Positions 41,939 through 45,629 of a stretch of DNA of 64,000 nt are shown piece after piece. The notes under the pieces are model-generated. The model was not told the DNA's origin and ran no database searches. It was given only the letters and a program-made list of their open reading frames with translations. Origin of the DNA: Microvirga terrae (GTDB lineage: Bacteria > Pseudomonadota > Alphaproteobacteria > Rhizobiales > Beijerinckiaceae); NCBI RefSeq assembly GCF_013307435.2, contig NZ_CP102845.1, positions 3,718,001-3,782,000 of the forward strand. The letters are read 5' to 3'. A program made the translations under genes and the position numbers. Each line of letters opens with the position of its first letter. Position 1 is the first letter of the stretch.

Positions 41939-42670
41939 TTACTGCTTCGGAGCCGTGGTGGTGCCGGTCGTCGAACGGTTGGCGCTGTTGTCGCCGTCCT
42001 CATCGAAAGCCGGAGCAGCCTGGAGCTCGGCCTTCGTCATCCGAAGAACCACGCGCTCGGGTTGGTTCTGGTTGCTCGACGAGGTGTTCGCCGCGGTGTT
42101 GGTCGAGCCGGCCGTGCCGGAACCCATCGTGGTCGTGTTGCCCGTGGTCGCCGTCGAGCCGGCTGTCGAACCCGTGGTGTTCACGTTGTTGTTGCCGCTG
42201 CGGCTGCTGTCCATGGCCTGCGCCTGCTGGCTGGTCATGAACTCGAGCGACTTGAACGGAACGGCCACATCCTTCTCGCCGATGCCGAGGAAGCCGCCCA
42301 CGCCGACGACGGCCGCCATGATCTGACCGTTGCGGTCCAGGATCACGTCATTGATGTCGCCGATCGATTCGTTGTTGGCGCTGACCACCTTGGTGCCGAT
42401 CAGATCGGACGCCATGACGTGGTTCGTTTCCATCTTGGTGATGAACTGACCCTGCATGGCGCTGTTCTGGCCCATGGTGGTCGTGGACTGCGCCGAAGAG
42501 GAAGATCCGGAGGCACCTGGCTGCATGGCCGGCGAGCCCGTGGTGGTCGAGCCCGCGCCAGAAGCAGCCGGGCGATCGGTCGGAGCCGACGGGGACGAAG
42601 TCTGTGCGAGTGCGGGCGCGGCCGCAAAAGCCGTCACGACAAGGCAAGCCGCCATATGCTTCTTCAGCAT
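41939..42670 (-). CDS. Exported PRC-barrel domain protein
   Basis: 243 residues. Signal peptide HMAACLVVTAFAAAPALAQ, then a Ser/Thr/Gly/Pro low-complexity linker, a PRC-barrel domain at about 80-150 (VMASDLIGTKVVSANNESIGDINDVILD, VAVPFKSLEF), and a Thr/Gly/Asn-rich tail. PRC-barrel proteins in the periplasm of rhizobia are common stress-induced proteins with no defined activity. An EcfG promoter with a perfect match begins 61 bases upstream. Confidence 0.9.
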   Translation of the reverse strand: MLKKHMAACLVVTAFAAAPALAQTSSPSAPTDRPAASGAGSTTTGSPAMQPGASGSSSSAQSTTTMGQNSAMQGQFITKMETNHVMASDLIGTKVVSANNESIGDINDVILDRNGQIMAAVVGVGGFLGIGEKDVAVPFKSLEFMTSQQAQAMDSSRSGNNNVNTTGSTAGSTATTGNTTTMGSGTAGSTNTAANTSSSNQNQPERVVLRMTKAELQAAPAFDEDGDNSANRSTTGTTTAPKQ

Positions 42671-43038
42671 TGCTTATTTCTCCTGAGGATCGGTTAAAAT
42701 CGCGTTGTGCACCGAAGTGCGCGGGGATGTAACGCGCAGCCCCAGCCTCCGTTCCGAATATCCGCTGGATCAAGCTAATGTTATCGGCGTCTATATTCCG
42801 AAACTCTAAGATGAATACTTATTAATATTTTATGGCGGCAAAGTACCTGTGCCGCCTGCACGCTGACAGGCAACATCAACCATGCCGATAACGGCAACCG
42901 TCCTGACGATGATTGGTTCCGGCCGGATCGTGCGACCCGGGCTGCCCGCCGCTGAAGGGATGCAACGGACCAGACCGAACGACAGCCGGCTCACCGGAGA
43001 AGCCGCTCGCCCGATGCGAGATGCCGGACATCAACTCC
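42671..43038. other. 368-base region between two stress genes
   Basis: It contains the EcfG promoter of the PRC-barrel gene (42731-42755). The rest, including the AT-rich stretch around 42790-42835, has no ORF with coding character and no recognisable structure. Confidence 0.5.
42731..42755 (-). promoter_or_regulatory. Candidate EcfG promoter of the PRC-barrel gene
   Basis: Reverse strand GGAAC (42755-42751), 16 bases, CGTT (42734-42731). Confidence 0.78.
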
Positions 43039-43560
43039 TCAGGACAGCGACTGCTCGAGGAAAGCGAGGCAAAGGCTCGGCATCCGGTTGGCGCTCGCCT
43101 TGGCAAGCGGGGAGACGTCGCCGACACAGCCGATGGGGTTGCGGCTCTTCGGCTTCTGGGTTTGGTTCTGCGGAGCCTCATTGCCCTCCTGGCGGCGGAC
43201 CGGGTGCTGTGCAACCGGGCCCTGCACCTCCTCCTTGAGGGTCACGACCGGCAGGTCCGTGTCCCGCGCGAAGGTCGTGGTGCCGGAGCGGGGATCCGAC
43301 TTGTAGAGCACCTTGCCTTCCTGGTCCCGCAGGATCACGGCAGCGTTGGACACGCCGACCAACTCCACGATCGAAACCGCTGCCGGCCTGCTCGACGGAA
43401 CAGGCGCCGCGATCCGATCGCCCCTCACCGAGACTGGAGCCGCGAGAGCCAGGGCTTCCGACTGCACCAGCGGAGACATGGTGAAGGACGATGGTGCGAA
43501 GCTTCCGGCCACGAAGAAAGCCCCAGCCAATCCGACCAAAGCTACAGGTGTGCGGAACAT
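43039..43560 (-). CDS. Exported protein of unknown function, probably stress induced
   Basis: 173 residues. A signal peptide or anchor is clear at the N-terminus (VALVGLAGAFFVAGSFA). The middle part has VELVGVSNAAVILRDQEGKVLYKSD and TTTFARDTDLPVVTLKEEVQ, a small beta-rich domain. The C-terminus ends with NPIGCVGDVSPLAKASANRMPSLCL, a two-cysteine tail that recurs in rhizobial hypothetical proteins. No activity is known. An EcfG promoter lies 41 bases before the start. Confidence 0.8.
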   Translation of the reverse strand: MFRTPVALVGLAGAFFVAGSFAPSSFTMSPLVQSEALALAAPVSVRGDRIAAPVPSSRPAAVSIVELVGVSNAAVILRDQEGKVLYKSDPRSGTTTFARDTDLPVVTLKEEVQGPVAQHPVRRQEGNEAPQNQTQKPKSRNPIGCVGDVSPLAKASANRMPSLCLAFLEQSLS

Positions 43561-43600: not shown

Positions 43601-43625
43601 AACGCGACCATTTCTTTGATGTTCC
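43601..43625 (-). promoter_or_regulatory. Candidate EcfG promoter of the exported protein gene
   Basis: Reverse strand GGAAC (43625-43621), 16 bases, CGTT (43604-43601), directed to the start at 43560. Confidence 0.78.
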
Positions 43626-43673: not shown

Positions 43674-43699
43674 GGAACCTTTGTTTTCGATAGGGCGTT
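43674..43699 (+). promoter_or_regulatory. Candidate EcfG promoter without a protein gene (sRNA promoter)
   Basis: GGAAC at 43674-43678, 17 bases, CGTT at 43696-43699. It points into an 80-base region that ends in a rho-independent terminator and has no ORF. Confidence 0.7.
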
Positions 43700-43705
43700 C
43701 TTAAA

Positions 43706-43786
43706 GTACCGGCCTCCTGGTCCTCCCCGCATTCCCCTTGTGCATTGGCCGGCACCTAAGACGGGCTCATCAGCCCGTCTTTTTTT
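43706..43786 (+). ncRNA. Candidate EcfG-controlled small RNA with C-rich loop
   Basis: About 80 bases between a candidate EcfG promoter and a strong terminator, with no open reading frame. A 6-bp stem CCGGCC (43709-43714) / GGCCGG (43747-43752) presents a 32-base loop rich in C (TCCTGGTCCTCCCC), complementary to Shine-Dalgarno sequences. The second hairpin is the terminator. This layout recalls the stress-induced sRNA GsrN of Caulobacter and the CCUCC-loop RNAs of Rhodobacter. The start position is inferred from the -10 element. It runs toward the 3' end of phyR, and the two terminators separate them. Confidence 0.62.
43759..43786 (+). terminator. Rho-independent terminator of the candidate sRNA
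   Basis: Perfect 9-bp stem AGACGGGCT/AGCCCGTCT with a 4-base loop and a run of seven Ts overlapping its end. No protein gene on this strand precedes it. Confidence 0.9.
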
Positions 43787-43812: not shown

Positions 43813-43833
43813 AGCCCGGCCAACGGCCGGGCT
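43813..43833 (-). terminator. Rho-independent terminator of phyR
   Basis: Perfect 9-bp stem AGCCCGGCC/GGCCGGGCT with a 3-base loop, followed on the reverse strand by TTTTCTTTT. It lies 30 bases beyond the phyR stop. Confidence 0.9.
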
Positions 43834-43863: not shown

Positions 43864-44670
43864 TCAGGCCGTTGCAGCACGGGGCTCGCGGCGCCGGGCG
43901 CTCTGCTGGAAGAAGAGGGCCTGGCTGATCACGGCCGAGACGTTCGCCGGCTGGAACGGCTTGGCGATCAGGAAGGCGGGCTCGGGCCGCTCGCCGGTCA
44001 GGAAGCGCTCGGGATACGCCGTGATGAAGATCACCGGAACTTCGAAGGCCTTGAGGAGGTCGTTGACCGCATCGAGACCCGAGCTGCCATCGGCCAGCTG
44101 GATATCGGCCAGGATCAGGCCGGGCTGCTTGGCGGAAGCGAGCTTGACGGCTTCGGTCCTCGTGCGGGCGACTCCCGTCACGTTGTGGCCGAGGCCCTCG
44201 ACCAGAGCCTCGAGGTCCATCGCGATGAGAGGCTCGTCCTCGATGATGAGGATGTCCGTTGCCATATCGGCCGCAAGCTCCCGTCCGGCCTCGTCGACGA
44301 GTTCACGGACGGTCTTCGTGTCGACGTCGAGGATCTGGCCGACCTCCTCCTCTCCAAAGCCCTCAAGGCAGGACAGAAGGAAGGCCTGACGGGGAAGCGG
44401 GGTAATCTGGCCGAGACGGACCTCCGCCGGCAGGTCGCGCTGGATCTGCTCGCTGCGTCCGTTCACCGACAGGGAATTCCAGATTCGGGTAAAGACCTGA
44501 AAGAGCTCGACCTTCACGTTTCCGGAAGGACCGATGGTCTCGGGCTCGCTCACGAGGGTTTCGAGGGTGGCGGCCACATAGGCGTCACCAGCCATCTGGC
44601 TGCCTGTGAGCGCGCGCGCGTAGCGGCGAAGATACGGTAAATGCTGGACGACAAGCTGCGCTGTCGACAT
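43864..44670 (-). CDS. phyR: General stress response regulator PhyR
   Basis: 268 residues from ATG 44670, which has AAGGGGAAGCG upstream; an in-frame extension to 44808 would run through the divergent promoters and is rejected. Residues 1-130 mimic an ECF sigma factor (VQHLPYLRRYARALTGSQMAGD, LPRQAFLLSCLEGFGEEEVGQIL). Residues 140-260 are a receiver domain (ILIIEDEPLIAMDLEALV; phospho-acceptor Asp in LILADIQLADG; Lys in AKPF). When phosphorylated it binds NepR and frees EcfG. Divergent from nepR-ecfG with its own EcfG promoter; no PhyK-type kinase gene is in the window. Confidence 0.97.
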   Translation of the reverse strand: MSTAQLVVQHLPYLRRYARALTGSQMAGDAYVAATLETLVSEPETIGPSGNVKVELFQVFTRIWNSLSVNGRSEQIQRDLPAEVRLGQITPLPRQAFLLSCLEGFGEEEVGQILDVDTKTVRELVDEAGRELAADMATDILIIEDEPLIAMDLEALVEGLGHNVTGVARTRTEAVKLASAKQPGLILADIQLADGSSGLDAVNDLLKAFEVPVIFITAYPERFLTGERPEPAFLIAKPFQPANVSAVISQALFFQQSARRREPRAATA

Positions 44671-44853: not shown

Positions 44854-45087
44854 ATGACGGTCGATAAGGGGAACAAGCTTGCTCGGGCCATTCTGGATAC
44901 ATCCGTGAACGACAAGGACGATAAGCTTGCCAACGACCCCAAGCTCGACAGCGGCAGTCAGAAGCGCATCGGCGACCAACTTCGTGCCATGTATGACGAA
45001 CTGATGCAGCAGCCTGTGCCGGACCGTTTCAAGGAACTGCTCGATCAGCTGGACAAGAAGAACGGGGGGAAGGAGGGGTCTCAATGA
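44854..45087 (+). CDS. nepR: Anti-sigma factor NepR
   Basis: 77 residues. The conserved NepR core is GSQKRIGDQLRAMYDELMQ followed by QPVPDRFKELLDQLD, with flexible charged ends. It binds EcfG and prevents it joining RNA polymerase until phosphorylated PhyR takes its place. AAGGGGACG precedes the ATG, and its stop overlaps the start of ecfG (ATGA, 45084-45087), which keeps the two proteins in balance. Confidence 0.96.
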   Translation: MTVDKGNKLARAILDTSVNDKDDKLANDPKLDSGSQKRIGDQLRAMYDELMQQPVPDRFKELLDQLDKKNGGKEGSQ

Positions 45088-45629
45088 CCCCAGAACCTGA
45101 ACCGGAGTTACGGGAAGCCCTTCTCGCAGCGGTTCCCAGCCTTCGCGCCTTCGCCATCTCGCTTTCGGGTCAGGTCGACAGGGCGGACGACCTTGTTCAG
45201 GACACTCTCCTCCGGGCCTTGGCCAATCTGCATCGGTTCGAGCCGGGAACGAACCTGAATGCGTGGCTCTTCACCATCCTTCGCAATCTTTTCCATTCCG
45301 AGTACCGCAAGCGGCGTCGCGAGGTCGAGGATCCCGACGGCTCCTATGCAGGGCGCCTGAAGGTTCAGCCCGAACAGGGCTCTCACCTGGATTTCGAGGA
45401 TTTCCGCAGCGCGCTCGCCAAGCTCCCGTCCGACCAGCGCGAGGCTCTGCTTCTGGTCGGCGCATCCGGCTTCTCCTACGAGGAGGCCGCGCATATCTGC
45501 GGCTGCGCCGTCGGGACGATCAAGAGCCGCGTGAACCGTGCCCGCTTTCGCCTCGCGTCCCTGCTGAACGTCGAGGACATCGAAGACCTCGGTCCCGACA
45601 GCATGACAAGAGCAGCCCTGCAGGGCTGA
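45084..45629 (+). CDS. ecfG: ECF sigma factor EcfG (general stress sigma)
   Basis: 181 residues. Region 2 is DRADDLVQDTLLRALANLHRF with GTNLNAWLFTILRNLFHSEYRK; region 4 is LPSDQREALLLVGASGFSYEE and AAHICGCAVGTIKSRVNRAR. It directs RNA polymerase to GGAAC-N16-CGTT promoters, including its own. It overlaps nepR by four bases and is followed by a terminator hairpin. Confidence 0.96.
   Translation: MTPEPEPELREALLAAVPSLRAFAISLSGQVDRADDLVQDTLLRALANLHRFEPGTNLNAWLFTILRNLFHSEYRKRRREVEDPDGSYAGRLKVQPEQGSHLDFEDFRSALAKLPSDQREALLLVGASGFSYEEAAHICGCAVGTIKSRVNRARFRLASLLNVEDIEDLGPDSMTRAALQG

Follow-up and report, generated by a model that had tools for sequence, protein, structure and literature searches.

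The window analyzed here, a stretch of 64,000 nt from Microvirga terrae, harbors the phyR-nepR-ecfG locus of the general stress response (GSR). Directly beside phyR lies a short unit at positions 43674-43786. The features of the unit and of its neighborhood are:

43674..43699, plus strand, sigma-EcfG-type promoter GGAAC-N17-CGTT (read directly, motif enrichment, kept in orthologs)
43705..43786, plus strand, predicted small RNA of about 82 nt (fold, no ORF, conservation)
43709..43714, plus strand, 5' arm of the outer stem, CCGGCC (compensatory changes across the family)
43725..43744, plus strand, conserved core CCCCGCATTCCCCTTGTGCA, proposed pairing region (conservation and complementary leader sites)
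43729..43743, plus strand, inner hairpin GCAU-UCCCCUU-GUGC within the loop (predicted fold; 100% of cells paired, nearly invariant)
43747..43752, plus strand, 3' arm of the outer stem, GGCCGG (compensatory changes across the family)
43758..43786, plus strand, intrinsic terminator (stem-loop 43758-43781, then a T tract to 43786; kept in relatives)
43813..43833, minus strand, convergent phyR terminator (terminator scan)
43864..44670, minus strand, phyR, the convergent neighbor (Pfam PhyR_sigma2, PhyR_sigma-like, Response_reg)
44854..45087, plus strand, nepR (Pfam NepR)
45084..45629, plus strand, ecfG sigma factor (Pfam Sigma70_r2, Sigma70_r4_2)

The initial annotation had proposed a non-coding unit beside phyR with GGAAC-N17-CGTT at one end and a terminator at the other, close to a convergent phyR terminator. 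Direct reading, the ORF list and a terminator scan confirmed the unit, and the phyR terminator was found on the opposite strand. The GGAAC element is located at 43674-43678 and is followed by a 17-base spacer and CGTT at 43696-43699; the putative 5' end of the RNA was set to 43705, 6-9 bases past the -10 element. None of the listed reading frames of at least 60 aa covered positions 43700-43786, and one frame on the plus strand stops at 43693, within the promoter. The GGAAC-N16/17-CGTT motif occurred 10 times in the window compared to 0.79 ± 0.90 times in shuffled sequence, and nine of these motifs surrounded the stress locus (41.7-47.4 kb). Terminator-like sites between 42500 and 45500 were not more common than expected by chance (3 versus 2.9), and the terminator call is therefore based on position and conservation.

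A second EcfG-type promoter (GGAAC-N16-CGTT, 43601-43625, minus strand) points away from the RNA. The gene behind it (43039-43560, minus strand) encodes a secreted-looking protein of 173 aa with no Pfam match. Since the two EcfG-type promoters point in opposite directions, they may drive the small RNA and this gene as a divergent pair within the GSR. Another EcfG-type promoter motif (42731-42755, minus strand) precedes a gene for a PRC-barrel protein (41939-42670, minus strand).

The 82-base RNA folded with -32.6 kcal/mol (z = -4.68), and 0 of 200 shuffled sequences folded as well. The outer stem encloses a 32-base loop (43715-43746) that includes the C-rich sequence CCUCCUGGUCCUCCCC. This loop had been described as exposed. 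It is indeed C-rich, but part of it is predicted to form the inner hairpin at 43729-43743 and it is not wholly open. Rfam 15 gave no match in the window; the best sub-threshold score over the unit was 17.5 bits, compared to a gathering cut-off of 79.

A BLASTn search with 141 bases matched the unit in 36 of 61 genomes, namely its own and 35 of 36 other Microvirga genomes, and in none of 24 genomes from elsewhere in the order. The core CCCCGCATTCCCCTTGTGCA and the outer stem were identical in all 36 Microvirga orthologs. GGAAC-N16/17-CGTT was present in 34 of them, with CATT (L036) or TGTT (L032) in place of CGTT in the other two. The initial annotation had made conservation in close relatives a test of the unit; BLASTn and alignments showed that promoter elements, hairpin and terminator were kept in relatives, while the promoter spacer and the upstream DNA drifted. 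With model R1 the RNA was found in 45 of 46 Microvirga genomes, the sole exception being an assembly of 780 contigs (G026).

Within the family, the core pattern (at most 2 mismatches) was present in 32 of 248 genomes, among them 15 of 15 Microvirga, 14 of 15 Methylobacterium (including Methylorubrum; g33) and both genomes of a third genus, g60, which includes a record named 'Rhizobiales bacterium YIM 77505'. In one g38 genome the pattern matched at two sites that did not resemble the RNA. An exact antisense 18-mer was present in 46 of 49 Methylobacterium genomes. A metagenome-assembled genome (MAG) labelled Beijerinckiaceae (L123) also carries the RNA. Of 297 genomes drawn from across the order, six had model matches, namely that of M. 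terrae and five Methylobacterium; because only 18 candidates per genome were scored, with strict filters, absence elsewhere is weak evidence with regard to diverged forms. Phages showed no match to the RNA. Among plasmids, there was one match in M. bullatum, at a place with no annotated gene in a record with a single annotated feature overall. A Rhizobiaceae-labelled MAG (L088) encodes a PhyR with 98% identity and next to it the RNA in its Microvirga form; this MAG is probably a mislabelled or mixed bin. The expectation that an RNA of this kind is not recognizable by sequence alone did not hold: within Microvirga and Methylobacterium it is easily recognized, because the 20-nt core hardly changes.

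The location next to phyR is also conserved. Among 80 named loci read (from at least 118 stretches), phyR was present in 68. It was convergent to the RNA in every one of these, and the near end of the phyR match was 124-575 nt away from the core. The 12 loci without phyR comprised three chance matches (Alysiella, Phycisphaerales and Micrarchaeota), five paralogs, and four copies of the phyR type that had no phyR in their stretch (L090, L105, L109, L141).

The RNA is a member of a multi-copy family. R1 gave 71 matches in the 45 Microvirga genomes, corresponding to 26 extra copies in 15 genomes, with seven copies in one of them (G007). Most extra copies showed few or no changes in the core and had different stems and terminators, and many had their own GGAAC-N-CGTT/ATT promoter. 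The outer stems of paralogs were, for example, CGGCCCGT/ACGGGCCG or GGACCCGTC/GACGGGTCT around the kept core. Some paralogs showed variation in the core or lacked an EcfG motif. A promoter was not found by pattern in 54 of 175 distinct core contexts; those listed include antisense leader sites, chance matches, near-consensus promoters (L032, L058) and promoterless paralogs. One paralog segment that was cut before the terminator (L199) did not fold better than shuffled sequences (z -0.55).

Covariation of the stem was analyzed in alignment A3, which holds 34 of 38 copies; the near-duplicates L054, L084, L109 and L145 were omitted, and MAFFT shifts L200 and L207 by one column in the stem. Changes on both sides were seen in four of the eight pairs of the outer stem. 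The number of cells changed on both sides was 32 versus 12.9 ± 2.5 in shuffles (0/500), slid controls reached at most 4, and the covariation score was 0.195 versus 0.088 (0/500). Two of five measures did not exceed the shuffles: pairs with changes on both sides (4 versus 3.5; 253/500) and further pair types (11 versus 11.1). The inner hairpin GCAU/GUGC was paired in all cells. Since it hardly varies, the data are consistent with this hairpin without proving it. A subgroup (L207, L341-L343) has GCAC/GUGC, a change from U-G to C-G.

Seven Microvirga copies (L200, L207, L338, L339, L341-L343) have an enclosing stem and a variant core, and no EcfG motif was seen. Most of them have CCATCT in the upstream stretch, perhaps another control site. 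The genome of M. terrae itself contains a possible relative (G000:C4:17973; L074, L330) on a 39.7-kb contig, and this copy is possibly plasmid-borne. It carries GCAAC-N16-CGTT, a core that differs in its last letter, an enclosing stem and a terminator, and adjoins an ORF that by eye resembles a serine recombinase. It folded only moderately better than shuffled sequences (z -2.41, 5/200) and was not listed by R1.

In Methylobacterium, the complement of the core was found in the leader of a conserved gene. Three Methylobacterium loci (L077-L079) and one g60 locus (L075) encode homologous proteins that look secreted, and in each the core occurs in antisense ahead of the likely start. The L077 and L075 proteins share 29% identity (E = 4e-12) and a similar C-terminal motif. 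The L077 protein has a sub-threshold Pfam match to PepSY_2, the L075 protein has no Pfam match, and relatives, mainly from Methylorubrum, are labelled hypothetical, PepSY-domain or YPEB-domain proteins. We therefore refer to a PepSY-like gene. It was present in all 45 Methylobacterium genomes, and the core was complementary to its 5' leader in all 45 as well as in one g60 genome. In 33 of these genomes, the antisense 18-mer (at most 2 mismatches) was located upstream of the PepSY-like match at a distance of no more than 250 bases; the leaders of the other 12 (G253, G303, G289, G307, G309, G311, G217, G318, G294, G322, G108, G324) carry variants such as GCACGGAGGGAAUGCGGGG. The reversed pattern matched in 3 of 49 genomes.

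All 46 leaders (the 45 and L075) fit the anchor pattern. The best loop-leader duplex beat 30 of 30 shuffled loops in 44 leaders, with L225 (1/30 shuffles as good) and L229 (4/30) as exceptions; the 46 leaders are not independent, since orthologous leaders share ancestry. Entropy was below 1 bit in 16 of 19 site columns versus 6 of 71 flanking columns, part of the site being fixed by the anchor pattern. The middle GG and the last G of the site, which are outside the anchor-fixed letters, were kept in 93-100% of rows. Cofolding of the RNA with a leader gave -16.7 to -31.1 kcal/mol, and five of seven leaders beat all 40 shuffled targets (exceptions L231, 2/40, and L318, 1/40); the RNA used was a same-genus copy, sometimes from another genome than the leader.

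The position of the site relative to the gene varied. At L209-L216, a second site was located directly before the likely start codon, flagged in seven of these eight loci and with a similar stretch there in L212; at L075, the single site has this position. Elsewhere among the Methylobacterium loci compared, it was about 100-160 bases upstream of the likely start. All start codons of the PepSY-like gene are predicted ones. A scan of the region ahead of the gene in 47 loci (up to 800 bases, shorter in 15 loci; L318 and L329 represent one gene) showed no EcfG-type promoter in 45 of them. In L223 and L232, an EcfG-type motif with a 15-base spacer is present.

Other targets were also looked for. 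In the whole window, no site was better than those of five shuffled loops, except for the antisense strand of the RNA itself, and the search for a conserved extended target in Microvirga yielded nothing beyond the copies of the small RNA. The protein search found no PepSY-like gene in Microvirga. Alignment gave weak matches (E ≥ 1.7e-6) in G006, G007, G008 and G011, no clear ortholog among them, and no site complementary to the core was present near these matches. In Methylobacterium, an ORF that looks like TadE/TadG by eye (L204) overlaps a two-mismatch site in one genome only and was treated as chance; seven other two-mismatch sites (L331-L337) had no gene in common. A 2016 study on PhyR of Methylobacterium extorquens (PMC4814048) left post-transcriptional effects unexplained, including the accumulation of sigma-EcfG3 without change in transcription, and named a small RNA as a possibility. 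Across five Methylobacterium genomes, 28 EcfG-paralog leaders were scanned and gave no ortholog-shared site; the leaders L285 and L290 singly beat all 60 shuffled loops. The scan gave no support for direct pairing of the small RNA as an answer to the sigma-EcfG3 accumulation. This result is weak, because it relied on guessed start codons and treated EcfG3 together with the other paralogs.

The promoter motif, the structure, the conservation and the complementarity are supported directly by the sequence. Taken together, they make it quite likely that the unit encodes a trans-acting small RNA of about 82 nt that is driven by sigma-EcfG, base-pairs via the core of its loop and is a functional counterpart of GsrN. 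Under stress, PhyR would free EcfG from NepR, and RNA polymerase with sigma-EcfG would then transcribe the unit. The first hairpin would display the 20-nt core, part of it folded into an apical hairpin whose loop is UCCCCUU, and the second hairpin would act as terminator. The inner hairpin would open and the core would form a duplex with mRNA leaders, one target in Methylobacterium being the leader of the PepSY-like gene. Any role of Hfq would be part of the same prediction. The RNA thus probably adjusts the message for a PepSY-like secreted protein during stress. A block of translation would be the likeliest effect at L209-L216 and L075, because pairing there would take place immediately ahead of the likely start codon; at the other Methylobacterium loci, with the site about 100-160 bases upstream, the effect could be of either sign. 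More speculatively, the sibling RNAs could use one targeting loop with different promoters and so bring several signals to the same mRNAs, as a post-transcriptional arm of the GSR in Methylobacterium. This idea builds on the diversity of promoters: EcfG motifs accompany the copy beside phyR and many paralogs, but none was seen at L200, L207 and L341-L343.

The loop could also act as a general anti-Shine-Dalgarno element, masking G-rich ribosome binding sites of many mRNAs with no particular target. We consider this unlikely. The loop does include a C-rich tract, and for the C-rich loop of GsrN, pairing to G-rich sites of many co-purifying RNAs is reported as a prediction (PMC5869019). However, GCAUU and UUGUGCA would be needless for a non-specific C tract, yet they are kept across genera and in most paralogs and are the very letters that the leader sites match. 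The CCUCC-type anti-Shine-Dalgarno loop proposed initially thus stands as a C-rich loop, but it is more than a CCUCC tract, because the complementarity that was found uses CCCCGCAU and CUUGUGC. A function of the core as protein-binding or sponge element, with the match in the PepSY leader being a decoy or due to another cause, would agree with the conserved inner hairpin and with the lack of a conserved extended site in the Microvirga search. It appears improbable, since what occurs in the leader is the core's reverse complement and not the core itself, which indicates pairing of loop and leader. Decoy action by the PepSY leader is possible.

The RNA might instead affect phyR, either by readthrough of its terminator antisense to the phyR 3' end or by convergent transcription that tunes phyR. 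The convergent orientation in all loci with phyR would fit this, but two opposed terminators separate the RNA from phyR, the conserved part is the loop and not the overlap, and paralogs without phyR in the stretch read still keep the loop; we regard such interference as very unlikely. As the RNA gene is predicted from sequence, the unit might also be taken for a conserved DNA element or for motifs that came together by chance, but this is hardly credible given that compensatory stem changes, promoter motif and terminator are kept together. We thus favor a base-pairing small RNA. Compared to the initial annotation, the multi-copy family with a shared core and the complementarity of this core to the PepSY-like leader are new.

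No description of this RNA was found in the open-licence literature, to which the search was confined. Judged by its predicted anatomy, the unit can be classed as GsrN-like under the working definition of PMC5869019: a near-consensus sigma-EcfG site lies upstream, the phyR-nepR-ecfG locus is close, and the predicted 5' hairpin has a C-rich loop. Like GsrN of Caulobacter crescentus, it combines a sigma-EcfG promoter, a 5' hairpin with C-rich loop, a terminator and proposed pairing to G-rich mRNA sites. Most GsrN relatives are likewise located near the GSR locus, C. crescentus itself being the exception (PMC5869019). The fixed 20-nt core with its inner hairpin, the multi-copy siblings and the PepSY-like candidate target set the RNA apart from GsrN as described there. 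According to the same source, BLASTn matches of GsrN are confined to Caulobacteraceae, and GsrN-like RNAs were predicted mainly by position in Rhizobiaceae, Brucella, Bradyrhizobium and Rhodopseudomonas; its main text does not mention Methylobacterium.

Among 30 PhyR loci of the order (including that of M. terrae), three others had a C-rich hairpin and a terminator behind an EcfG motif, about 110 bases (L257) or about 1.4 kb (L268, L274) away from phyR. Their sequences differ from the RNA of Microvirga and Methylobacterium, with a faint similarity in the loop of L268. They are candidate GsrN-like RNAs in other families of the order.

As in SmelA075/SmelA099 and RS0680a of Rhodobacter, the loop motif is kept, stems vary and several copies per genome occur, and for those RNAs an anti-Shine-Dalgarno action is proposed (PMC3927594). 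They are described as having two to four hairpins with the anti-Shine-Dalgarno motif in each, CCUCCUCCC in SmelA075/A099. In contrast, the unit has a single C-rich hairpin and lacks CCUCCUCCC, and thus has no tandem CCUCCUCCC hairpins. By description it also resembles Bsr6 of Brucella, an sRNA that depends on RpoE1, the sigma factor of the GSR, and whose promoter contains the RpoE1 box; the role of Bsr6 is reported as unknown (PMC12772402). The RNA described here is a concrete candidate in nearly all Microvirga and Methylobacterium genomes examined, with a defined pairing region and one candidate target, and extends GSR-linked RNAs with a C-rich loop to these two genera with a sequence of their own.
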